64,000 bases of DNA from Luteibacter sp. (GTDB lineage: Bacteria > Pseudomonadota > Gammaproteobacteria > Xanthomonadales > Rhodanobacteraceae): the NCBI RefSeq assembly GCF_009912395.1, contig NZ_WNDO01000005.1, forward strand, positions 1 through 64,000. Direction: 5' to 3'. The notes beneath the pieces are model-generated. The model was not told the origin of the DNA, did no database searches, and saw only the letters and a list, made by a program, of their open reading frames with translations. The position numbers and the translations under genes were made by a program. Of the stretch, positions 1,278 through 14,110 are shown in pieces. Positions within the stretch are counted from its first letter, which is position 1. Every line of letters begins with the position of its first letter.

Positions 1278-2594
1278 ATGAAGGGTTTGGTTGGGTTGGC
1301 GTGGGTGCTTCTGTTGCCGGGCATGGCGAACGCGGCGGGGTTCGATTGCGCCAAGGCGTCGAGCGCGGCGGAGAAGCTGGTGTGTGCCACGCCGAAACTG
1401 TCGACGCTGGATGCGGAGCTGGGTAAGGTGTACCAGGATGCGATCAAGGCGCATCCGGAACTGGCCGAGGCGATCCGGCTCGATCAGCGCCACTGGCTGG
1501 CCGAGCGTGACGACACCACTTGGACCTTCCAGTCCGGCACGCCCGTCGACGAGTTTCCGAAGATGCTGGCGGATTTGTACCAGCGTCGTATCGACATCCT
1601 GAGCCATATCGGCCAGAAGCCGGGTGGTCCGCTCGATGTCGTGCAGAAGGCGCTACCGGATACCGGCGGTGCCTCCGATCTGGTCCAGGCGCTTGCCGCC
1701 CGTCATGTGATCACGCTGGCGAAGGACGTGGAAATCAAGGACGCCAAGTCGCTGCCCTTCCAGCCCGATGCGACGTTGCGCGGCGAGATCAGTTTCGACA
1801 ATGGCAACGTCACCAACCGCGTGCTGGAAGGTTCGCCCATCGGTTCGGCCTATTCGATCGGCGGCACGGCCCACTGCGTGTCGGAAGCGCCGTACCGGCT
1901 CGATGGCAAGAAGGCCGCGGCGGTCGACATGCCGCCGGTCTGGGGCGAGGACTGCATGACCACGCACGCGCTCGCCCGCGTGGGCAACGACATCGTCGCC
2001 CTGCGCATGGACGACGGCAACTTGTCGGAAGTGGTGCTGGCGGCGAGCCAGTGGAAGGGGGCGTCGTTCGGTCCGGCGGTGGAACTGGTGTCGCGCTTCG
2101 ACCGCACGCTGTCGCTGTCCGGCGCGATCTGCGGCCCGAAGGAAATGCCGTGCGCCGATTTCGGCAAGCTTGCCCTGCAATACGCCACGCGTTACGCGGC
2201 ACGTCCGCAGCCGGGCACCATCGACAAGCTCGACAAGGGCATGGACAAGGCGACCTATACGGCCGCCGTGGCAGCGGCGACGGCCCCGGGCGGCATCGCC
2301 CCGAAGGGTTCCGACAATGGGTTTGCCGACCTGCCGATGTTCGGCCAGAACATCGCCGGCTATCGCATGACCGGCTATGCCAGCGAGGCGACGTTCTTCC
2401 CCATCGCCTTCCGTGGCGAGACGCTGCTGGGCATGATCGGCCACGGTCATGTCGGCTGGCGTGCGAACGAAGACTGGCTGGTCTCCGCCTGGCGCTTGAA
2501 GCAGGGCAAGCTGGAGCCGGTCGCCTCGGCTTATATTGAGGTGGCGGCGGGGAAGTTCCTGTACTCCTCGCCGATCCCGGTCAAGGCGCCCTGA
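1278..2594 (+). CDS. Secreted protein with LprI/DUF1311-like N-terminal domain
   Basis: The 438-residue product starts with a signal peptide (MKGLVGLAWVLLLPGMANA, cleavage near residue 20). A domain follows with the pattern F-D-C-x-K-A-x-S-x-x-E-K-L-V-C and then LSTLDAELGKVYQ, which is the DUF1311/LprI-type motif known in lysozyme inhibitors and many periplasmic proteins. The two cysteines probably form a disulfide. The remaining 300 residues are not recognised. The start is set by a gaggag site about 7 bases upstream. The gene precedes a PH-domain gene by 10 bases, so the two may be cotranscribed. Function beyond a periplasmic location is unknown. Confidence 0.75.
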   Translation: MKGLVGLAWVLLLPGMANAAGFDCAKASSAAEKLVCATPKLSTLDAELGKVYQDAIKAHPELAEAIRLDQRHWLAERDDTTWTFQSGTPVDEFPKMLADLYQRRIDILSHIGQKPGGPLDVVQKALPDTGGASDLVQALAARHVITLAKDVEIKDAKSLPFQPDATLRGEISFDNGNVTNRVLEGSPIGSAYSIGGTAHCVSEAPYRLDGKKAAAVDMPPVWGEDCMTTHALARVGNDIVALRMDDGNLSEVVLAASQWKGASFGPAVELVSRFDRTLSLSGAICGPKEMPCADFGKLALQYATRYAARPQPGTIDKLDKGMDKATYTAAVAAATAPGGIAPKGSDNGFADLPMFGQNIAGYRMTGYASEATFFPIAFRGETLLGMIGHGHVGWRANEDWLVSAWRLKQGKLEPVASAYIEVAAGKFLYSSPIPVKAP

Positions 2595-2604
2595 GGTTCG
2601 TGCG

Positions 2605-3087
2605 ATGAAGGTATTCCAGACCAGCATGAGTACGGCCGTCCGCTGGACGGGGCTCCTGACGGTTGTTTTCGCGATCATCGTCGTGGCCGTCATGGCCTCG
2701 CGGCCCAACGGCACCTTCAGCGTGCCGCTGGCCGGCCTGTTGCTCGTGATCCTGTCGATCGCCTATGCGATGTCGCCCCTGCGCTACGACGTTGGCGATG
2801 GGCAGCTCGTGGTGCGTCGCCAGGTGGGGCGGGTGTCCGCCGAGTTGCGCGGGGCGACCATCGAGAGCGATCCGGCGGCGTTCCGCGGCCTGGTCAGGAC
2901 GTTCGGCAATGGCGGCTTTTTTGCCGTGCATGGGATGTACTGGTCGCGTCGGCTGGGCGCGGTGCGCGTGTATGCGCGCAACCGCGATCACGGCGTGGTG
3001 CTGACGCTGGCATCCGGTCGCAAGTGGTTGCTGTCGCCCGACGACCCCGACGCGTTCATCGCGGCGGTGAGGGCCTGGACCCGATAG
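2605..3087 (+). CDS. PH-like domain membrane protein (160 aa)
   Basis: The protein has two N-terminal membrane segments (residues about 14-33 and 40-57), then a soluble part beginning LRYDVGDGQLVVRRQVGRV and ending SGRKWLLSPDDPDAFIAAV. The pattern of a membrane hairpin followed by a beta-rich domain closing with S-P-D-D-P-D-x-F is that of bacterial PH (bPH) domain proteins, whose roles are mostly unknown. The start is 10 bases after the upstream gene, suggesting an operon with the DUF1311-like protein. A REP-like palindrome follows directly and may end the transcript. Confidence 0.7.
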   Translation: MKVFQTSMSTAVRWTGLLTVVFAIIVVAVMASRPNGTFSVPLAGLLLVILSIAYAMSPLRYDVGDGQLVVRRQVGRVSAELRGATIESDPAAFRGLVRTFGNGGFFAVHGMYWSRRLGAVRVYARNRDHGVVLTLASGRKWLLSPDDPDAFIAAVRAWTR

Positions 3088-3092
3088 ATGTC

Positions 3093-3160
3093 TGTAGGAG
3101 CGCGCTTGCGCGCGATGGGTGCTTGCGGTAACCCCCATCGCGCGCAAGCGCGCTCCTACA
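3093..3160. repeat. REP-like inverted pair
   Basis: Two opposed copies of the unit tgtaggagcgcgcttgcgcg (left arm about 3093-3119, right arm about 3134-3160) are separated by about 14 bases. They can form a long hairpin between two convergent genes. The same unit recurs at 25.3, 29.3, 46.9, 58.5 and 62.4 kb. Confidence 0.9.
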
Positions 3161-3178
3161 TAGGATGGTGATCGCTGA

Positions 3179-4552
3179 TCAGGCCTTGCGACGGCGCAGC
3201 AGGTAGCTCACGCCCAGGATGGCGAACCAGACGGGGCTGGCGATCAGCGCCTGGCGGGTGTCGCTTTCCAGGGTGAGCAGCACCAGCACGAAGGCGAAGA
3301 AGGCCAGGCACACCCAGCACATCACGACGCCACCGGGCATCTTGTACGCCGACACGGCATGCAGTTCCGGGCGCTTCTTCCGATACGCGATATACGCGAA
3401 CAGGATCAGCGACCAGACGAACATGAAGAGGATGGCCGAGAGCGTGGTCACCAGGGTGAAGGCCGTGACCAGGTTCGGAATGAGGTATACCAGCATCGCG
3501 CCGCCGAACAGGCAGATGCACGAGAACAGCAGGCCATTGGAGGGCACCGCGGCACGCGACAGCTTCTTGAACGCCTTGGGCGCGTGGTCCTCGTCCGCTA
3601 GGCCGTACATCATGCGGCTGGTGGAGAAGATGCCGCTGTTGGCCGACGACGTGGCCGAGGTGAGCACCACGAAGTTGATCAGGCTGGCGGCGGCGGGGAT
3701 GCCAGCGAGCACGAACAGCTCCACGAAGGGGCTCTTGCCCGGCAGCACTTCGCGCCACGGCATCACCGACATGATGACGATCAGCGACAGCACGTAGAAC
3801 AGGATGATGCGCACGGGGATCGAGTTGATCGCCTTGGGCAGGTTGCGCTCCGGGTTGGCAGTCTCGGCGGCGGTGGTGCCGACCAGTTCGATGCCGACGA
3901 AGGCGAATACCGCGATCTGGAAGCCGGCGAAGAAGCCGCCGATGCCCTTGGGGAAGAAACCGCCGTCGCTCCACAGGTTGGTGAGTGAGGCTTCGTGGCC
4001 GTCCGGCGAGTGGAAGTGCCAGGCAATCATGCCAAAGCCGGTGACGATGAGCGCGCAGATCGCCACGATCTTGATCAGGGCGAACCAGAATTCCAGTTCG
4101 CCGAACAGCTTCACCGTGGTGAGGTTCAGCGTCAGCAGCAGGAGCACGCAGAGCACGGCGGGTATCCACGGTGCCAGCCCGGGGAACCAGAACTGCGCAT
4201 AGGACGCGATGGCGATCACGTCCGCGATGGCGGTGATGATCCAGCAGAACCAGTAGGTCCAGCCGCAGAAGAAGCCGGCCCAGGGGCCGAGCAGGTCGGT
4301 GGAGAAGTCGATGAACGACTTGTACTGGAGGTTGGAGAGCAGCAGCTCGCCCATCGCCCGCATCACGAAGAACAGCATCACGCCGATGATGAGGTAGACG
4401 AAGAGGATCGAGGGGCCTGCCAGGCTGATCGTCTTGCCCGAGCCCATGAACAGGCCGGTGCCGATGGCGCCGCCGATGGCGATGAGTTGCAGGTGGCGGT
4501 TGGAAAGGCTGCGCTGGAGATGCTCGGGCGCGGATTCCTGCGGATGGGACAT
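3179..4552 (-). CDS. cycA: D-serine/D-alanine/glycine:H+ symporter CycA
   Basis: This 457-residue APC-superfamily permease follows Escherichia coli CycA closely along its length: NRHLQLIAIGGAIGTGLFMG at the first helix, LAGPSILFVYLIIG, the MRAMGELLLSN motif, GPWAGFFCGWTYWFCW, FVGIELVGTTAAET and the ending TLESDTRQALI. About 12 membrane helices are expected in the inner membrane, importing D-Ser, D-Ala, Gly and D-cycloserine. An in-frame ATG at 4573 would add 7 residues, but that codon lies at the edge of a stable stem, so 4552 is preferred. The gene lies downstream of, and in the same direction as, the aldo/keto reductase, separated by a hairpin. Confidence 0.9.
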   Translation of the reverse strand: MSHPQESAPEHLQRSLSNRHLQLIAIGGAIGTGLFMGSGKTISLAGPSILFVYLIIGVMLFFVMRAMGELLLSNLQYKSFIDFSTDLLGPWAGFFCGWTYWFCWIITAIADVIAIASYAQFWFPGLAPWIPAVLCVLLLLTLNLTTVKLFGELEFWFALIKIVAICALIVTGFGMIAWHFHSPDGHEASLTNLWSDGGFFPKGIGGFFAGFQIAVFAFVGIELVGTTAAETANPERNLPKAINSIPVRIILFYVLSLIVIMSVMPWREVLPGKSPFVELFVLAGIPAAASLINFVVLTSATSSANSGIFSTSRMMYGLADEDHAPKAFKKLSRAAVPSNGLLFSCICLFGGAMLVYLIPNLVTAFTLVTTLSAILFMFVWSLILFAYIAYRKKRPELHAVSAYKMPGGVVMCWVCLAFFAFVLVLLTLESDTRQALIASPVWFAILGVSYLLRRRKA

Positions 4553-4571
4553 GGGCGACGGCTCGCAAGAC

Positions 4572-4605
4572 ATACGAAGCCCCGGACCATACGGGGGCTT
4601 CGTAT
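4572..4605 (-). terminator. 12-bp stem-loop between aldo/keto reductase and cycA
   Basis: Arms atacgaagcccc (4572-4583) and ggggcttcgtat (4594-4605) are perfectly complementary with a 10-base loop. The stem lies after the reductase stop (4656) and just before cycA. There is no clear T-run after it on the minus strand, so it is either a weak terminator or a 5' leader structure of cycA. Confidence 0.5.
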
Positions 4606-4655
4606 CGGCGGCAAGAGACGAAAGTATCGCCGGGCGTCGGAAAAAGCTTACGAGG

Positions 4656-5720
4656 TCAGGCCGGGCGGACGACGCGCGCCCCGCCCAGTACCTGGTCACG
4701 CACGCGGGGCAGGAACCGGCCCGGGAAGATGGGGGCGATGGCGCTCGCCGCCTCCAGCCGACGGCGCTGATCGTCGTTGAAGGTGATCTCCAGGGCGCCG
4801 AGGTTCTCGGTGAACTGGGCCGCCGTGCGGGCGCCCAGAATGGGGATGACCCGGGGGGCCTGTCGATCGAGCAGCCATGCGATGGCGGTCTGGGCCGGGG
4901 TGTGGCCTACGTCCTCGGCCACCGCCTTCAGGGTGTCCACGATGTCGAGGTTGCGCTCGCTCAACGAGCCCATTGCGGCGGCAACGGCGGCCCGGGTGCC
5001 ATCGAACATGGGCTTGCCTTGCAGGGCGGCAATGTCCGCGCGGCTGTACTTGCCGCTCAGCACGCCGCTGGCCAGTGGCGACCAGGCCAGCACGCCAAGG
5101 CCCAGTTCGTGGGCCATCGGCAGCAGGTCGTGCTCCACCGAGCGCTCCACCAGGCTGTGCTCGATCTGCAGGGCGACCAGAGGCGCCCAGCCGCGCAGGT
5201 CAGCGAGGGTCTGCATGCGCGCCACCTGCCAGGCCGGTGCGTCGGAGATGCCGACGTAGACGATCTTGCCCGCGCGCACCAAGTCGTCGAAGCCGCGCAT
5301 GATCTCGTCCACCGGCGTCAGGTGGTCCCAGACGTGCAGGTAATAGAGGTCGATGTAGTCGGTGCCGAGTCGACGCAGGCTGGCCTCCACGGCGCGAACC
5401 ATGTTGCGCCGGTGGTTGCCGCCGGCGTTGACGTTGCCGGGCTCGGTGTTGAGCGTGTACTTGGTGGCGATCACCGCGCGGTCGCGGCGGCCGGTGAGGA
5501 ACTTGCCCAGCAGGGTTTCCGAGGTGCCGCCGGTATAGAAGTTGGCGGTGTCGATGAAGTTACCGCCGCGCTCCATGTAGGCGTCGAGGATGGCTCGGGC
5601 CTCCGCCTCGGGCGAACCCCAGCCCCAGTCGTCGCCGAAGGTCATCGTGCCCAGCGACACCGGGCTGACACGTAGGCCGGAACGGCCGAGGGTGAGGTAA
5701 TCGTCGAGTTGCAGGCTCAT
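4656..5720 (-). CDS. Aldo/keto reductase
   Basis: The 354-residue protein has the full aldo/keto reductase barrel: LGRSGLRVSPVSLGTMTFG at the N-terminus, then IDTANFYTGG with the catalytic Asp and Tyr, ATKYTLN (Lys), YIDLYYLHVWD (His), and the C-terminal NADPH part VIPILGARTAAQFTENLGAL. It should reduce carbonyl compounds with NADPH in the cytoplasm; the true substrate is unknown. The start has an aagga ribosome site 9 bases upstream. It is transcribed divergently from a LysR-type gene 97 bases away, the usual arrangement for a regulator and its target. Confidence 0.9.
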   Translation of the reverse strand: MSLQLDDYLTLGRSGLRVSPVSLGTMTFGDDWGWGSPEAEARAILDAYMERGGNFIDTANFYTGGTSETLLGKFLTGRRDRAVIATKYTLNTEPGNVNAGGNHRRNMVRAVEASLRRLGTDYIDLYYLHVWDHLTPVDEIMRGFDDLVRAGKIVYVGISDAPAWQVARMQTLADLRGWAPLVALQIEHSLVERSVEHDLLPMAHELGLGVLAWSPLASGVLSGKYSRADIAALQGKPMFDGTRAAVAAAMGSLSERNLDIVDTLKAVAEDVGHTPAQTAIAWLLDRQAPRVIPILGARTAAQFTENLGALEITFNDDQRRRLEAASAIAPIFPGRFLPRVRDQVLGGARVVRPA

Positions 5721-7549: not shown

Positions 7550-7693
7550 GGGCATCCGGAACAGGGTGGCACGGTTAACCGCGAGCAAATATAGCGTTCT
7601 GCGTGAAGGCGATGTCAACGCGAATGGCTGTCATTTACACTATTCCATTGCTTCACGGCTGCACGCATCATAGCCATTTTCCAGGGGATGACC

Positions 7694-8551
7694 ATGTCCA
7701 CACTCAGCCAGCGCACCATCGACGCCATTCGCTCCAACGAGTCCCAGCTGCTGGCGAGCTGGTCGGTCAACCTTGAGGCCAGCGGCGCCTCGCGCGATAC
7801 GCGCATCGGCCATTCCGAATTCGAAGGACAGACGCGTGAGTTCCTCCGCCTGCTGGTCGCGGGTTCGGCGACGGGCGACACCGGCAGCGTGGCGAGCAAC
7901 GAATGGAGCGAGACGCGTGCCTTCCTTGAAAAGCTGTCACGCAGCCGCGCGCTGCAAGGCTTCGATTCGGCGCATACGGCGCACTTCATCTTCTCGCTGA
8001 AACGCCCGCTGTTCGATCTGCTCCAGAAAGAGTACGCGACCGATCCGGCGGAGCTGGCGAACCAGTTGTGGGCCATCTCCGAGATGCTGGATACGCTCGG
8101 CATGCACACTATTCGCACCTTCCAGAAATCGCGCGAGGAAGTCATCGCCCGTCAGCAGGAAGAACTGCTGGAGCTGTCCACCCCGGTGGTGAAGTTGTGG
8201 GATGGCGTCCTCGCCTTGCCGATGATCGGCACGCTCGATTCGCAGCGTACCCAGGTGGTGATGGAGTCCCTGCTGCAGCGCATCGTGGACACGGGTTCGG
8301 AGATCGCCATCATCGATATCACCGGCGTGCCGACGGTGGACACGCTGGTCGCGCAGCACCTGCTGAAGACGGTTACCGCCATCCGCTTGATGGGTGCCGA
8401 TGCGATCATCAGCGGCGTCCGTCCGCAGATCGCGCAGACCATCGTGCACCTGGGTCTGGACCTGCAAGGCATCGTCACCAAGGCCAATCTCGCCGATGCG
8501 CTCGCCCTGGCGCTGAAGCGCTCGGGGTACCAGGTCGGCAAGGCGAGCTGA
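7694..8551 (+). CDS. rsbR: RsbR-type stressosome co-antagonist
   Basis: The 285-residue protein has an N-terminal alpha-helical sensor region (about 1-150, RsbRD-like rather than globin) and a C-terminal STAS domain (about 160-280). The STAS domain carries IIDITGVPTVDTLVAQHLL and GVRPQIAQTIVHLGLDLQ, almost as in Bacillus subtilis RsbR. Threonines in GVPTVDT (214, 217) and AQT (249) lie where RsbT phosphorylates RsbR. The family forms the stressosome shell with RsbS in the cytoplasm and holds RsbT. The ATG at 7694 is preferred over 7688 because of its distance from the aggggatg site. It is the first gene of a six-gene operon. Confidence 0.92.
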   Translation: MSTLSQRTIDAIRSNESQLLASWSVNLEASGASRDTRIGHSEFEGQTREFLRLLVAGSATGDTGSVASNEWSETRAFLEKLSRSRALQGFDSAHTAHFIFSLKRPLFDLLQKEYATDPAELANQLWAISEMLDTLGMHTIRTFQKSREEVIARQQEELLELSTPVVKLWDGVLALPMIGTLDSQRTQVVMESLLQRIVDTGSEIAIIDITGVPTVDTLVAQHLLKTVTAIRLMGADAIISGVRPQIAQTIVHLGLDLQGIVTKANLADALALALKRSGYQVGKAS

Positions 8552-8555
8552 CGCC

Positions 8556-8918
8556 ATGGAACGCATCCCTATCCTGCGCATGGGCGAGTTCCTGCTCGTC
8601 ACCATCCAGGTCGACATGCACGACCAGCTGGCGCTGACCCTGCAGGATGACCTGGCCGAACGTATCAGCCGGACCTCCGCGCGTGGTGTGCTCATCGATA
8701 TCTCCGCGCTGGACATGGTCGATTCCTTCATCGGCCGCATGATCAACACCATCTCCGGCCTGTCGAAGGTGATGGACGCCGAGACGGTGGTCGTGGGCAT
8801 GCAGCCTGCGGTAGCGATCACGCTCGTCGAACTGGGCCTCTACCTGCCTGGCGTCAGCACGGCGCTCAACGTCGAGCGTGGCATGGAACGGCTGCGCGAA
8901 CGGTTGGACGCGCAATGA
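8556..8918 (+). CDS. rsbS: RsbS-type stressosome scaffold (STAS protein)
   Basis: This 120-residue single STAS domain begins IPILRMGEFLLVTIQVDMHD and carries DISALDMVDSFIGRMINTI. Ser57 in D-S-F aligns with the phosphorylated serine (Ser59) of B. subtilis RsbS. The sequence MQPAVAITLVELG is also conserved. RsbS forms the stressosome core and releases RsbT once phosphorylated. It starts 4 bases after rsbR and overlaps rsbT by an ATGA, so the three are translated together. Confidence 0.93.
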   Translation: MERIPILRMGEFLLVTIQVDMHDQLALTLQDDLAERISRTSARGVLIDISALDMVDSFIGRMINTISGLSKVMDAETVVVGMQPAVAITLVELGLYLPGVSTALNVERGMERLRERLDAQ

Positions 8919-9319
8919 GGCCCGAGCGTACCGGCTCGCAACCCGTGCGTTCCGAGCAGGACGTCGTGCTCGCGCGACAGGTCGCGCGCAAGCTTGCCGT
9001 GGAGTGCGGCTTGCGCCTGGTCGACCAGACCAAGCTGGTCACTGCCGCCAGTGAGCTGGCACGCAACACCGTGATCTACGGCGGTGGTGGCGATATGGAT
9101 TGGGAAGTGGTCGAAGAGGGCAGCCGCAAGGGCCTGCGTCTTGTCTTTCGCGACGAAGGCCCCGGCATCGCCGACGTCAAGCTCGCGATGACGGATGGCT
9201 GGACCTCGGGCAACGGCCTCGGTCTTGGCCTCACCGGAACGCGTCGCCTGGTCGACGAATTTTCCCTGGAGAGCGCACCGGGCGTGGGTACGCGGGTGAC
9301 GATCTGTAAATGGAACTGA
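8915..9319 (+). CDS. rsbT: RsbT-type serine/threonine switch kinase
   Basis: A 134-residue GHKL ATPase of the anti-sigma-factor kinase type. It has the N-box ASELARNTVIYGGGG (Asn51), the G1-like DEGPGIADV and G2 GNGLGLGLTGTRRLVDEF. RsbT phosphorylates RsbR and RsbS and, when set free, switches on its partner; in B. subtilis this is the phosphatase RsbU. No RsbU, RsbV, RsbW or sigma-B gene is in the window. The next gene overlaps by 10 bases. Confidence 0.93.
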   Translation: MRPERTGSQPVRSEQDVVLARQVARKLAVECGLRLVDQTKLVTAASELARNTVIYGGGGDMDWEVVEEGSRKGLRLVFRDEGPGIADVKLAMTDGWTSGNGLGLGLTGTRRLVDEFSLESAPGVGTRVTICKWN

Positions 9320-10323
9320 CCTTTACCGGTGGCCTGACCCGCAACGTCCCGGTCGAGGATGCCACCCAGATCGGCCATGCGCGACGCGTGGCGCAACAGG
9401 TCGCCCAGCAGATCGGCTTTGACGAGGGCGACGCGGGGCGCGTCGCCCTGGTCGCCACCGAGCTGGCCAGCAATGTGCTGCGTCATGCGCGCGGGGGCGA
9501 AATCCACATCGCGATCGTGCCGGGCCACGGCACGCAAGGCGTGGAGGTGACCTCGCTCGACCGTGGTCCGGGATTCGTGCTGGCGGAGTGCCTACCTGAC
9601 GGTTACTCCACGGCAGGTTCCCGGGGCGAAGGTCTCGGCGCCATCCAGCGCCAGGCCCAGGTCATGGACATGTATGCCGACGCGCGGGGTGCGGTGGTGA
9701 TGACGCGCCTATACCCGCGCGCTTTCCCGCGCGCGGACGTGCGCTTCGGCGCCACCCAGCAATTGCTGGCCGATGAACCCGTGTGTGGCGACGGCTGGGC
9801 GTTCGCCCTCTGCGCGCAGGGCGCGGCTGCCCTGGTGGTGGACGGCCTGGGGCACGGGCCCGCCGCCCACGAAGCGGCATCCGCCTGCGCGATGGCCTTC
9901 ATGGAAGCGCCATGCGACGAGCCGGTCGAGACCATGGGGCGCCTCGGCGCGGCGATGTCGTCCACGCGCGGTGGCGCGGTCGCGTTGGCGCGCTACGACG
10001 CGCAGGCCGATCGCCTGCGTTTCACCGGTATCGGCAACGTCTCCGCAAGCCTGCAAAGCTTCGAAGGTTCGCGGGGCCTCGCGTCGCATCCAGGTATCGT
10101 GGGCGGGCCGACCCGTCGTGCGCAGGCGTTCGATTTCCCGGAAGCCGGTGGCAAGCTCCTGCTGATGCACAGCGACGGCCTGCAATCGCGCTGGAGCCTG
10201 CGTGACTACCCCGGGTTGCTGACACGCCATCCGGCCGTGATCACCGCGCTGTTGTATCGTGACTTCAGTCGCGGCCGTGACGATGTCACGGTCTTCGCCA
10301 TCGCCCTGGAGGGACGCGCATGA
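9310..10323 (+). CDS. rsbX: ATP-binding SpoIIE-type phosphatase (RsbX-like, fused GHKL domain)
   Basis: The N-terminal half (about 1-135) is a second RsbT/RsbW-like ATPase with an N-box (ALVATELASNVLRHAR) and a DRGPGF motif. The C-terminal half (about 140-337) is a PP2C/SpoIIE phosphatase with Asp-containing motifs CGDGWAF, VVDGLGHG, HSDGLQSRW and RDDVTVFAI, so the metal ligands appear complete. By family it should dephosphorylate RsbR and RsbS and reset the stressosome. The fused ATPase is not present in Bacillus RsbX but is common in proteobacterial homologues. The start overlaps rsbT and the stop overlaps the kinase gene by ATGA. Confidence 0.88.
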   Translation: MELTFTGGLTRNVPVEDATQIGHARRVAQQVAQQIGFDEGDAGRVALVATELASNVLRHARGGEIHIAIVPGHGTQGVEVTSLDRGPGFVLAECLPDGYSTAGSRGEGLGAIQRQAQVMDMYADARGAVVMTRLYPRAFPRADVRFGATQQLLADEPVCGDGWAFALCAQGAAALVVDGLGHGPAAHEAASACAMAFMEAPCDEPVETMGRLGAAMSSTRGGAVALARYDAQADRLRFTGIGNVSASLQSFEGSRGLASHPGIVGGPTRRAQAFDFPEAGGKLLLMHSDGLQSRWSLRDYPGLLTRHPAVITALLYRDFSRGRDDVTVFAIALEGRA

Positions 10324-11171
10324 ACGACAGCGACGATATCGCCCGTCTCCGCGCCGAGAACGAGGCACTGCGTGCCGAACTCGACGAGACCAACCAGGGC
10401 GTGCTGGCGCTCTACGCCGAACTGGACAACCAGGCGGAGCAGCTGCGGCAGGCCTCCGAGCTGAAAAGCCGCTTCCTGTCGTACATGAGCCACGAGTTCC
10501 GCACGCCACTGGACTCGATTCTCAGCATGACGCGATTGCTCGTGGACGAACTCGATGGCCCGCTCAACGAGGAGCAGCACAAGCAGGTCGGCTTCGTGTC
10601 GGGCGCGGCGCGCGAACTGAGCGACATGGTGGACGACCTGCTCGACCTGGCGAAGATCGAGGCCGGGCGCATCACCATCTCTCCGGCATGGTTCGAGTTG
10701 ATGGATCTGTTCGCCGCGTTGCGCGGCATGTTCCGGCCCATCGTGGACAGCACCGAGGCAGACCTCGTCTTTGAGGAGCCGCGCGGCATGCCCAAGCTGT
10801 ATACCGACGACAAGAAGCTTGCCCAGATCCTGCGCAACTTCATTTCCAACGCCCTCAAGTTCACGCCGCGTGGCGAGGTGCGTGTCTCTGCGGAACTGGA
10901 AGCCGCCGATCGCGTGCGGTTCTCGGTGCGGGACACGGGCATCGGCATTCCACCCGATCTCCAGGGCATTCTCTTCGAGGATTTCACCCAGGTGGATTCG
11001 CCCTTGCAGAAGCGCGTGCGTGGCACGGGCCTGGGGCTGTCGCTCTGCCGACAGTTCGCTCATCTTCTGGGGGGTGAAGTGGGCGTCATCAGTGTCCCGG
11101 GCGAAGGTTCCACCTTCCACGTGGTGTTGCCGTTGAAGCTGCCGGCCGAGGTGCCCGATGGAAACGCGTGA
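10320..11171 (+). CDS. Stressosome-linked sensor histidine kinase without transmembrane segments
   Basis: The 283-residue protein starts with a leucine-rich coiled coil (residues about 6-48) and then has the dimerisation and phosphorylation helix LSYMSHEFRTPLDS (His58). The ATPase domain includes LRNFISNALKFTP, DTGIGIPP and GTGLGLSLCRQF. No sensor domain or membrane segment is present, so it should act in the cytoplasm and take its signal from a partner. Its place after rsbT-rsbX with ATGA overlap makes RsbT the likely partner (inference). It overlaps the next hybrid kinase by 14 bases. Confidence 0.9.
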   Translation: MNDSDDIARLRAENEALRAELDETNQGVLALYAELDNQAEQLRQASELKSRFLSYMSHEFRTPLDSILSMTRLLVDELDGPLNEEQHKQVGFVSGAARELSDMVDDLLDLAKIEAGRITISPAWFELMDLFAALRGMFRPIVDSTEADLVFEEPRGMPKLYTDDKKLAQILRNFISNALKFTPRGEVRVSAELEAADRVRFSVRDTGIGIPPDLQGILFEDFTQVDSPLQKRVRGTGLGLSLCRQFAHLLGGEVGVISVPGEGSTFHVVLPLKLPAEVPDGNA

Positions 11172-13092
11172 CCGGCTGCTGATCGTCGACGACAACGTCG
11201 CCACCCGTTATGCCATGCGGCGAACGGTGGAGCATCACGGTTACGTCGCCCTTGAGGCGGGTACGGGTTCGGAAGGCCTGGCCATGCTCGGGGCCAACGA
11301 GGTCGCCGCCGTGATCCTCGACGTGAACCTGCCCGACATGAGCGGGTTCGATGTCGTGCGGCGCTTGCGCGCCATGCCGACGACGGCGCTGTTGCCCGTG
11401 ATCCACGTGTCGGCGGCATCCATCGATACGGGGGACCTCATCACGGGCCTCGACAATGGAGCGGACGCGTACCTCATCCATCCGGTCGACCCGGATGTCC
11501 TGCTCGCGACCATCGGTACGCTGCTTCGCGTGCGTAAGGCGGAAGATGCCTTGCGCGACGCCGAGACGCGCTTCCGCGAGATATTCACCAATATCGCGGC
11601 GCCCATCGCGGTCGTGGATGGCAGCCTGAAAGTCATGGAGGCCAACGACGCCTTTCGTCGGCTGGTCGGCGACGAGGGATGCGACGAGTCCTTGCCGGCG
11701 TGTTTCCAGGAGGGACAGGACGCGATGATCGCCGGGATGCGCGATGCCCTGCATACACAGAAGCGATGGCGCGGTGTGCTGGCCATGCATTCCGCCATGG
11801 GGCTGCGCGAGGCGGAGTGGCGCATCACGCCCTATCGCCCTGGCGCAGGCCTGGTGTTTGTGGACGATGTCACGGATCAGCGGCGTCGCGAACGCGACCA
11901 ACTCGAGCGTATCGATACCGCCAATACACAGCTCGCCATCGAGATCGCCGAGCGCGAGCGCACGGAGTCCCAGTTGTTGCAGGCGCAGAAGATGGACGCC
12001 CTGGGCAAGCTCACGGGTGGCATCGCGCACGATTTCAACAATCTGCTGACCAGCATCATCACCGGTATCGACTTGATCAACCGGCAGGTCGATGCGGGCC
12101 ATACGGACCGCGTGCCGCGCCTTGCCGATGCGGCCCTGGGTTCGGCACGACGTGCGGCCGCGTTGACCCATCGCCTGCTGGCTTTTGCCCGTCAGCAGCC
12201 GCTGGACACGCGACCGACCGATCTCAACGAGCGCGTGCGCTCGCTGGAAGACATGCTGCGTCGGACGATCGGCGAGCACATGGAACTGGTGCTCGAACTG
12301 GCCGATGGCACCGCCGTTGCGAATGTCGATCCCAACCAGTTCGAAAACGCGGTGATCAACCTTGTCATCAACGCGCGTGACGCCATGCCTGCCGGCGGTG
12401 CGATTCGGGTAGGTACGGCGACCGTGTGTGTCCGTGGCGACGCGGAGCTGACCGATGGCGACTATGTGGTGCTGACCGTATCCGACAATGGCTCCGGCAT
12501 TCCCGACGATGTGATCGGCAAGGTCTTCGAGCCGTTCTTCACGACCAAGCCCCTGGGCCAGGGCACCGGCCTGGGCCTGTCGATGATCTACGGTTTCGCG
12601 CGCCAGTCCGGTGGGCAGGCACATATCCGGAGCACCGCAGGGCAGGGGACCGACGTGTCCATGCTGCTTCCCGCCAGCACGCAGGCCGTGCAGGACATTC
12701 CGAAGGTGGGCCGGCGTGTCGAGACCGGGCGTGGCGAGCGTATCCTGCTGGTGGAGGACACCGCGTCGTTGCGCATGATGGCGGCGGAAATCCTCACCGC
12801 GGGCGGCTACGAATGCGTCGCCAGGGCCGAGCCGGAAGAGGCTCTGCACCTGCTTCGCGGCGACGAGCCCTTCGACCTGTTGCTGACCGATGTCGGCATG
12901 CCTGGCATGAGCGGGCGTGAACTGGCCGACGTGGCACGCGCCTGGCGCCCCACGTTGCCGGTGTTGTTCATGACCGGCTACGCGGAGAACGCCATGGAGC
13001 GAGCGCGTTTTCTCGGCGAGGGCATGGACATGATCACCAAGCCCTTCGAGATCGACGACCTTCTGGTGCGGGTCGGACGCATGCTGGCCTGA
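11158..13092 (+). CDS. Hybrid sensor kinase: receiver-PAS-kinase-receiver
   Basis: The 644-residue protein starts with a receiver domain (1-125; acidic pair at 11-12, Asp55 in [10 protein letters not shown]). A PAS-like segment follows (about 135-240), then a short coiled coil and a kinase core with [13 protein letters not shown] (His291), the N-box [19 protein letters not shown] and [13 protein letters not shown] second receiver ends the protein (525-644; Asp578 in [10 protein letters not shown], Lys in ITKPFE). The preceding kinase could phosphorylate the first receiver, forming a phosphorelay. The HDFNN type of kinase is typical of proteobacterial hybrid kinases. No DNA-binding output is encoded in this operon. 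Confidence 0.9.
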
Positions 13093-13102
13093 CCCGCCTT
13101 CC

Positions 13103-14110
13103 TCAGAAGCCTTCCAGCACGATCTTGCCTTTCGCGGTGTGGCTTTCGATGAGCTTGTGCGCGCGTCGCAGGTTTTCCGCGGTGATCTTTCCGAAATGTT
13201 CGCCCAGCGTGGTGCGCAGCGTGCCGTCGTCGATCAGGGACGCGATGCGTTCGAGCAGTTCGTGCTGCTTGATCATATCGGGTGTCTGGTAGGTCGAACG
13301 CGTGAACATCGATTCCGTATGCAGCGAGATGCTCTTGCGCTTCAGCTTCATGCCATCGAGCGTCTTCGGATCGTCGATGAAGGCGAACTTGCCTTGCGGG
13401 CGGATGATCTCGACGAGCTGTTCGTAATACGCGTCGGTGTGGGTCAGACCGATGGCGTAATCGACACCGTCGATGCCGAGGGCTTCGAGCTGCGGGCCCA
13501 GCGGCTTGCCATGGTCGATCACGTGATGGGCGCCCAGCGCCGCGATCCACTGCTTCGTCTCGTCGCGTGACGCGGTGCCGATGACGGTGACGTTCGTGAG
13601 CTGGCGGGCCAGCTGCACGAGGATCGAACCTACGCCGCCGCCCGCGCCGATCAGCAGCAGCGATTCACCCTTGCCGCCCTTCTCGGCGATGCCGAAGCGG
13701 TCGAACAGCAGTTCCCACGCGGTGATGGCGGTCAGCGGCAGAGCAGCGGCGTGCGCGTCGTCGAGCGAGCGCGGCTTGTGGCCGACGATGCGCTCGTCCA
13801 CGAGCTGGAGTTCGGCATTGCTGCCCGGACGGATCAGCGAACCGGCGTAGAACACCTCGTCACCCACCTTGAACAGGCTGACCTCGCTGCCGACGGCTTC
13901 CACGCGACCCACGGCGTCGTAGCCGAGCACGCGGGGCTCGCTCGTGGGCATGCCGTTGCGCACCTTGGTGTCGACGGGGTTGACGGAAACGGCGCGGACA
14001 GCGACCAGCAGGTCGCGCGGGCCGGGGACAGGGCGGGCGAGTTCCACATCGACAAGACTCTGCGGGTCGTCGATGGACAGGCCGTTCTGGAGGTAGGCGA
14101 TCGCTTTCAT
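13103..14110 (-). CDS. Zinc-type alcohol dehydrogenase family / quinone oxidoreductase
   Basis: A 335-residue medium-chain dehydrogenase of the quinone-oxidoreductase group. It has the GroES-like N-terminal fold (VSVNPVDTKVRNG, then LGYDAVGRVEAVGSEVSLFK) and an NADPH-binding Rossmann motif LLIGAGGGVGSILVQLARQL. The cysteines of the structural zinc site are absent, as usual for this subgroup. It likely reduces quinones or enones with NADPH in the cytoplasm. It is convergent with the stressosome operon, with 10 bases between the stops. Confidence 0.9.
   Translation of the reverse strand: MKAIAYLQNGLSIDDPQSLVDVELARPVPGPRDLLVAVRAVSVNPVDTKVRNGMPTSEPRVLGYDAVGRVEAVGSEVSLFKVGDEVFYAGSLIRPGSNAELQLVDERIVGHKPRSLDDAHAAALPLTAITAWELLFDRFGIAEKGGKGESLLLIGAGGGVGSILVQLARQLTNVTVIGTASRDETKQWIAALGAHHVIDHGKPLGPQLEALGIDGVDYAIGLTHTDAYYEQLVEIIRPQGKFAFIDDPKTLDGMKLKRKSISLHTESMFTRSTYQTPDMIKQHELLERIASLIDDGTLRTTLGEHFGKITAENLRRAHKLIESHTAKGKIVLEGF

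Follow-up and report, generated by a model that had tools for sequence, protein, structure and literature searches.

A stressosome gene block in Luteibacter with a proposed output through two histidine kinases

Described stressosome outputs and the Luteibacter block

How a stressosome delivers its signal in the absence of RsbU, RsbV, RsbW and SigB is a question stated in the literature (PMC9237108). Eleven gene architectures have been described after rsbRSTX, HisKA/REC phosphorelays among them, and most of the downstream proteins considered there lack RsbU_N, with phosphorylation by RsbT offered as a possible route (Heinz 2022, PMC9237108). A two-component pair follows rsbRSTX in Vibrio vulnificus (PMC10014275), RsbT of Bacillus subtilis orders the flexible coiled-coil linker of RsbU, and kinases bearing RsbU_N are known in stressosome operons (PMC12143880). 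Here we examined a six-gene block, rsbR-rsbS-rsbT-rsbX-K1-K2, in which the stressosome genes are followed by a soluble histidine kinase (K1) and a hybrid histidine kinase (K2). The block lies in a window of 64,000 nucleotides (positions 1 to 64,000 of NZ_WNDO01000005.1), the whole stretch of DNA that was analysed, from contig C45 of a 5.39 Mb Luteibacter genome. In this soil bacterium the stressosome output is likely a relay of two histidine kinases and not a sigma factor as in Bacillus.

The rsbRSTX-D1-D2 cluster of V. vulnificus is alike in having a two-component pair after rsbRSTX and no sigma factor, as it is presented in PMC9237108 and PMC10014275. However, it combines a globin RsbR with a single-domain RsbX, whereas the Luteibacter block has RsbRD_N and an ATPase-PPM fusion, and its output is predicted to be cyclic di-GMP (c-di-GMP), where we propose a kinase-to-hybrid relay. 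The rsbRSTX clusters with HisKA/REC genes in Ruegeria and others (Heinz 2022, Fig. 3 legend) already place this class of output in print, but they were found through globin RsbR, and the section of that paper on downstream clusters mentions neither the linker described below nor an RsbT-like domain fused to a kinase. The RsbT-RsbU pair of B. subtilis would share with Luteibacter the use of RsbT as messenger and of a coiled-coil linker as target, although its effector is a PPM phosphatase (PMC12143880) and K1 is a histidine kinase with no RsbU_N match. Signalling helices (S-helices) are similarly parallel coiled coils before a catalytic domain, and a central heptad of theirs has polar residues at c-d-e; they carry ERT (PMC1592074), whereas the Luteibacter linker carries ETN-x-G and was confined to stressosome loci in the searches made. 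In RsbK-RsbM of Bacillus cereus, the kinase that governs a stress response is also a hybrid histidine kinase and contains a signalling helix, but control runs through helix methylation and SigB and, as the system is presented in PMC4574943, with no stressosome-linked relay.

An earlier note on this DNA, made from the letters alone, held that an output route of this kind was undescribed. This was too strong, as both the HisKA/REC phosphorelays after rsbRSTX (PMC9237108) and the V. vulnificus pair (PMC10014275) had been published, and the general idea of a stressosome with a histidine-kinase/receiver module is already in print (Heinz 2022). What is added here is the linkage of K1 to rsbRSTX, a conserved linker, the RsbT-like fusions and the change of the first receiver of K2 (REC1) after K1 loss.

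We propose that RsbR as sensor, RsbS as scaffold and RsbT as switch kinase would form the stressosome, which a two-domain RsbX-type phosphatase would reset. Under stress, RsbT would phosphorylate RsbR and RsbS and then be released, and free RsbT may act on the N-terminal coiled-coil linker of K1, with a change of packing like the one that RsbT brings about in the RsbU linker. K1 would then autophosphorylate at His58 and pass the phosphoryl group to Asp55 in REC1, and phosphorylated REC1 would gate K2, with transfer from His291 to Asp578 of the second receiver (REC2). In the last step, REC2 would pass the signal to an unlinked HPt domain or regulator. We put the probability of this output, from RsbT through the K1 linker and REC1 to a K2/REC2 phosphorelay, at roughly 0.55, each contact and phosphotransfer in it being predicted from sequence. 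It is carried by a conserved gene order, by the finding that K1 and its linker were linked to rsbRSTX in all cases examined, by the RsbT-like/linker/kinase fusions, and by the selective REC1 change in one Luteibacter genome, G011. A linker marking the likely direct target, together with fusions in cis and a natural upstream loss, makes the question of signal delivery testable.

Genomic association of K1 and the linker with rsbRSTX

The six open reading frames of the block are all on the plus strand and mostly overlap (S/T by 4, T/X by 10, X/K1 by 4 and K1/K2 by 14 bases, with a gap of 4 bases between rsbR and rsbS). This overlapping run had been reported in the earlier note and was confirmed by the open reading frames, by Pfam and by the recurrence of the same order in relatives; the numbering given there for K1 His58 and K2 Asp55 was also correct. 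Within the genus, RsbX and K1 were found in the same 17 of 23 genomes, so that a K1 free of the stressosome was rejected at this level, and K2 was found in 18, namely these 17 plus G011. K1 was present in 24 of 233 genomes of the family and stood directly after R-S-T-X in all 24. K2 was likewise present in 24 of 233, as the next gene after K1 in 23 and alone in G011; in a further case, G880, K1 is present and the contig stops just inside K2. Kinases unlinked from rsbRST had been named in advance as grounds for giving up the proposal: K1 was never unlinked in the family, and K2 was unlinked in one genome of 24.

The same six-gene order was also encountered in Frateuria, Stenotrophomonas, Pseudomonas, Variovorax and the Xanthomonas vasicola plasmid pXVH29. 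Chance neighbourhood was rejected: of the 45 locus identifiers having R, S, T and X, 42 continue with a kinase that bears the linker (L038 and L039 duplicate L079 and L082), and the remaining three are L045, which meets a contig end, L111 and L112. Searches over 398 genomes of the phylum recovered the RsbX fusion in 20 (E<=1e-20), with R, S, T and X together at 19 of the loci. A linker profile, built on the 49-residue stretch before the K1 H-box, was then scored on at most 17 candidates per genome; it matched in 17 of the 398 genomes, once in each and always just after the independently found RsbX, and 6 of these 17 genomes were absent from the profile rows. Among the candidates scored, no kinase unlinked to a stressosome carried the linker at E<=0.001. 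Two of the 19 RSTX loci had no profile match: the gene after X is an RsbT-like/HWE kinase in G172, and in G103 it encodes a diverged linker (ELADSSQGLIAITLELEN) and then PAS-GGDEF-EAL.

On plasmids, a tblastn search with one linker against 72,556 sequences returned 24 records, from Deinococcus, Variovorax, Caballeronia, Sphingomonas, Xanthomonas, Embleya and Nonomuraea. Of these, 21 were among the 30 RsbX-fusion matches listed, and the other three, from Deinococcus radiodurans, carry annotated rsbT-like and phosphatase genes immediately upstream of the linker gene. It was noted that in the D. radiodurans plasmids L190, L209 and L210 the X gene is split in two or shortened, while rsbT and the linker kinase are kept. 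The Streptomyces form of the linker gave 3 plasmid records, all from Streptomyces and all with RsbX.

Linker residues E20, T24, N25, G27, A30, L31, Y32 and E34 were invariant across 24 aligned kinases, as were the H-box, N-box, G1 and G2 residues H58, N173, N177, D205, G207, G209, G235, G237 and G239 in 24 K1 rows. The linker 17-mer took conservation rank 6 of 268 in K1, a rank somewhat flattered because the rows were picked by the linker motif itself; loci L038, L039, L042, L043 and L044 were dropped before this ranking and before the K2 alignment. Of the seven heptad registers, the one with Thr24 at d had the most hydrophobic core, which would put Glu23-Thr24-Asn25 at c-d-e, where S-helices have ERT (PMC1592074). 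K1 has ETN at these positions and not the ERT signature, and its N-terminus looks like an S-helix-like coiled coil. No RsbU_N match was obtained at E 0.01 on K1, on nine other effectors, or on L111, L112, L168 and L103, and the best hit of the linker profile in the PDB had E 0.14. No published description of the linker or of an RsbT-like/linker/kinase fusion was found in the literature searched, which did not cover all reviews. Two loci, Nonomuraea L173:8257-8403 and Embleya L191:3978-6218, contain the linker motif twice in tandem.

RsbT-like fusions and the route to K1

The kinase is preceded by a fused RsbT-like domain in L101, L102, L103, L105-L109, L115, Sphingomonas and two Deinococcus loci, and a weak, degenerate RsbT-like match precedes the linker effector in Caballeronia, Streptomyces, Nonomuraea and Embleya. 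A tree of 98 ATPase domains was built, for which 16 loci, mostly of the same genus, had been thinned out beforehand and L045 was also excluded; its row L112_T is the fused domain of the L112 kinase. The X ATPase domains fell on one side (100/98) and the fused domains fell with RsbT. RsbT proteins of loci whose histidine kinase has no fused domain, the Luteibacter locus included, formed one group of 19 rows (93/87, below the tool's star). The fused domain was therefore most simply lost once, although the root is not fixed. Catalytic motifs, searched with loose N-box and DxGxG patterns, are retained by the fused domain in all 13 labelled tree rows. As read from the sequences, L101, L168, L172, L173 and L191 have lost these motifs and kept the N-terminal half and the linker.

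The fusions bear directly on how RsbT would reach K1. Control through Ser/Thr phosphorylation, and not through linker binding, has been proposed by Heinz et al. for downstream kinases without RsbU_N (PMC9237108), and the presence of both N-box and DxGxG motifs in RsbT and of an invariant Thr24 in the linker would suit it. We consider it unlikely for K1, since the fused domain of the five loci just named is catalytically degenerate yet keeps its N-terminal half and linker, which fits docking better than kinase action. Equally unlikely in our estimation is that the RsbT-type ATPase domain of the X fusion, rather than free RsbT, partners K1 and couples the reset phosphatase to the output kinase. 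X directly precedes and overlaps K1, and all 49 X rows show the ATPase motifs under the same loose patterns, but in the tree the fused effector domains cluster with RsbT, separately from the ATPase domains of X.

The linker was also encountered on other effectors. L103, L106 and L169 carry the linker, a K2-type kinase and a receiver in a single protein, bypassing K1 and REC1; if the position of the linker marks the target, K2-REC2 would be the terminal unit of the Luteibacter relay. In L172 the linker is joined to GAF and a SpoIIE phosphatase, and in L111 a diverged linker stands before PAS-GGDEF-EAL. We tentatively suggest, at slightly less than even odds, that the linker is a portable plug for stressosomes, a conserved coiled-coil switch that may be read by RsbT in trans or by a fused RsbT-like domain, sometimes a dead kinase, in cis. 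Across at least 3 phyla, evolution would have attached it to two core types of histidine kinase, to a SpoIIE phosphatase and, as a diverged version, to a diguanylate cyclase/phosphodiesterase. If true, this would account for signal reception by effectors that lack RsbU_N, a question left by Heinz et al. (PMC9237108).

K2 without a stressosome, and the components of the locus

In G011 (L192:7025-8959), K2 is kept at the same chromosomal place and rsbRSTX and K1 are gone. The gene lies upstream of an M1 aminopeptidase gene and downstream of an aldo/keto reductase gene and of one that we read as LysR-like. Of the 51 REC1 positions that do not vary among the other 25 K2 rows, 11 are changed in this K2; the counts for the other domains are 0 of 18 (PAS), 1 of 83 (core) and 0 of 25 (REC2) (11/51 vs 1/126; Fisher p = 4.6e-6). 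Its REC1 has a mean identity of 59% to the 17 Luteibacter K2 rows, which share 80% among themselves; the corresponding values are 62 and 64% for PAS, 73 and 75% for the core, and 67 and 70% for REC2. In a leave-one-out control, the other K2 rows showed at most 5 REC1 changes (Frateuria) and a mean of 0.64. The distant Stenotrophomonas row L041 was changed at 8 of 91 core, 4 of 22 PAS and 3 of 54 REC1 positions. Spread-out change of K2 is therefore found elsewhere, and the pattern confined to REC1 was seen in G011. The residues changed include Asp11 in the acidic pocket, some that closely follow it, and others at 109-111, regions that we take to be the kinase-receiver interface of two-component structures.

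These observations also bear on whether K1 and K2 are merely co-transcribed with the stressosome, in which case the linker would be a signalling helix like any other and K2 would take its input from its PAS domain. The persistence of K2 alone in G011 and the likeness of the linker to an S-helix, with ETN at c-d-e against ERT (PMC1592074), would agree with this. However, a generic helix is expected in unlinked kinases as well, and the phylum search recovered none at E<=0.001 among the at most 17 candidates scored per genome; REC1, moreover, is changed where K1 is gone. We regard mere co-transcription as improbable, more so than either of the two alternatives above. The RsbT to K1 to K2 route put forward in the earlier note appears partly supported, by the linkage, the RsbT-like/linker/kinase fusions and the REC1 change where K1 is lost.

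Several findings weigh against the phosphorelay from RsbT through the K1 linker to K2. Synonymous change is also higher in G011 REC1 (proportion of synonymous differences, pS, 0.63-0.74 vs 0.44-0.66 in the other domains), so the ratio of nonsynonymous to synonymous change (pN/pS) is not raised, and recombination or a faster-changing region is possible. The REC1 pattern rests on one genome, and K2 survives there without a stressosome and so has some function of its own. Nor is the linker obligatory: the two linker searches recovered it in 27 of the 87 plasmid records that have an RsbX fusion. Ten of these 87 were inspected, plus 4 places reached by accession or linker match, and one of the two Embleya linker places was covered. 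Phaeobacter accounts for 55 of the records without it, and the one inspected (L176) has an RsbT-like/HWE kinase without the motif; L112 (HWE) and L175 (HisKA) similarly have an RsbT-like domain without the linker motif. For Vibrio, the two-hybrid assay of RsbT against the downstream kinase, as given in PMC9237108, had no positive result, the linker status of that kinase not being established here. Finally, no dedicated output regulator of the relay was found. Each of the 23 genus genomes has 8-11 HPt domains, and the idea that their number tracks the block was rejected, since the counts were unrelated to block presence.

The absence of RsbU, RsbV and RsbW, stated in the earlier note, held at the locus but not genome-wide. 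A second partner-switching set, comprising dCache-HAMP-SpoIIE, HATPase_c_2 and STAS proteins, was found in the same genome on contig C1 (C1:341000-351000, L130, at about 2371-5262). That RsbT signals to this other phosphatase, with the kinases as a side branch, is very improbable, for although such a set is present, its SpoIIE protein has dCache and HAMP matches, no RsbU_N match, and no linkage to rsbRST.

The stressosome proteins of the block were also assessed. RsbR (sensor and STAS), RsbS (STAS) and RsbT (GHKL) are encoded side by side, the composition of a stressosome module. RsbS aligned along its length with an RsbS chain in the PDB, presumably that of Listeria, its Ser57 standing opposite a serine replaced by Ala in 9o4r_a. 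In the alignment of RsbR to Listeria RsbR chains, Ser185 occupies the first phosphosite position, in place of Thr (the three compared chains have Ala, Thr or Glu there), and Thr219 lies within VDT. We take the positions of RsbS Ser57, RsbR Ser185 and RsbR Thr219 to be the phosphosites of the family literature, and on these alignments the STAS domains of both proteins appear to have phosphorylatable residues. The RsbX-like protein is 79% identical to its homologue in Luteibacter anthropi, the nearest named relative. It had been called an RsbX-like phosphatase in the earlier note, and its PPM part does match 3zt9 (E 5.8e-10), presumably Moorella MtX, and RsbX 3w40 (E 1.9e-7). It is not a simple phosphatase, however, as Pfam and PDB matches place an RsbT-type ATPase domain fused at its N-terminus, unlike the single-domain RsbX of globin-type clusters.

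Table 1. Coordinates of the stressosome-kinase block within the window.
Feature	Position	Strand	Content or proposed role
rsbR	7688..8551	+	RsbRD_N sensor domain and STAS (Pfam)
rsbS	8556..8918	+	STAS (Pfam)
rsbT	8915..9319	+	GHKL switch kinase, HATPase_c (Pfam); N-box and DxGxG
rsbX-like	9310..10323	+	HATPase_c_2 and SpoIIE (Pfam); N-terminal RsbT-type ATPase domain fused to RsbX/MtX-type PPM phosphatase
K1	10320..11171	+	Soluble histidine kinase without sensor domain, HisKA and HATPase_c (Pfam); phospho-acceptor His58
K1 linker, residues 20-36, ELDETNQGVLALYAELD	10377..10427	+	Proposed RsbT-responsive transmitter
K2	11158..13092	+	REC1 (Asp55)-PAS-HisKA (His291)-HATPase-REC2 (Asp578) (Pfam); His291 and Asp578 counted from the K2 alignment
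K2 REC1	11173..11532	+	Proposed acceptor of the K1 phosphoryl group
K2 REC2	12733..13089	+	Proposed relay exit

The gene after K2 (13103-14110) runs in the opposite direction, and a promoter and terminator scan of the locus gave nothing informative. In fourteen other genomes of the class (L114, L116-L128), the ATPase-PPM fusion is next to an RsbR-type STAS protein, and neither a separate rsbT nor a kinase on the same strand was recognised; by our reading a GGDEF-like protein is encoded upstream in L116, and the group looks like a separate c-di-GMP variant. On the Paraburkholderia sp. D15 plasmid (L175), the stressosome with the linker-less RsbT-like/kinase fusion adjoins katE and is near two Hsp20 genes.

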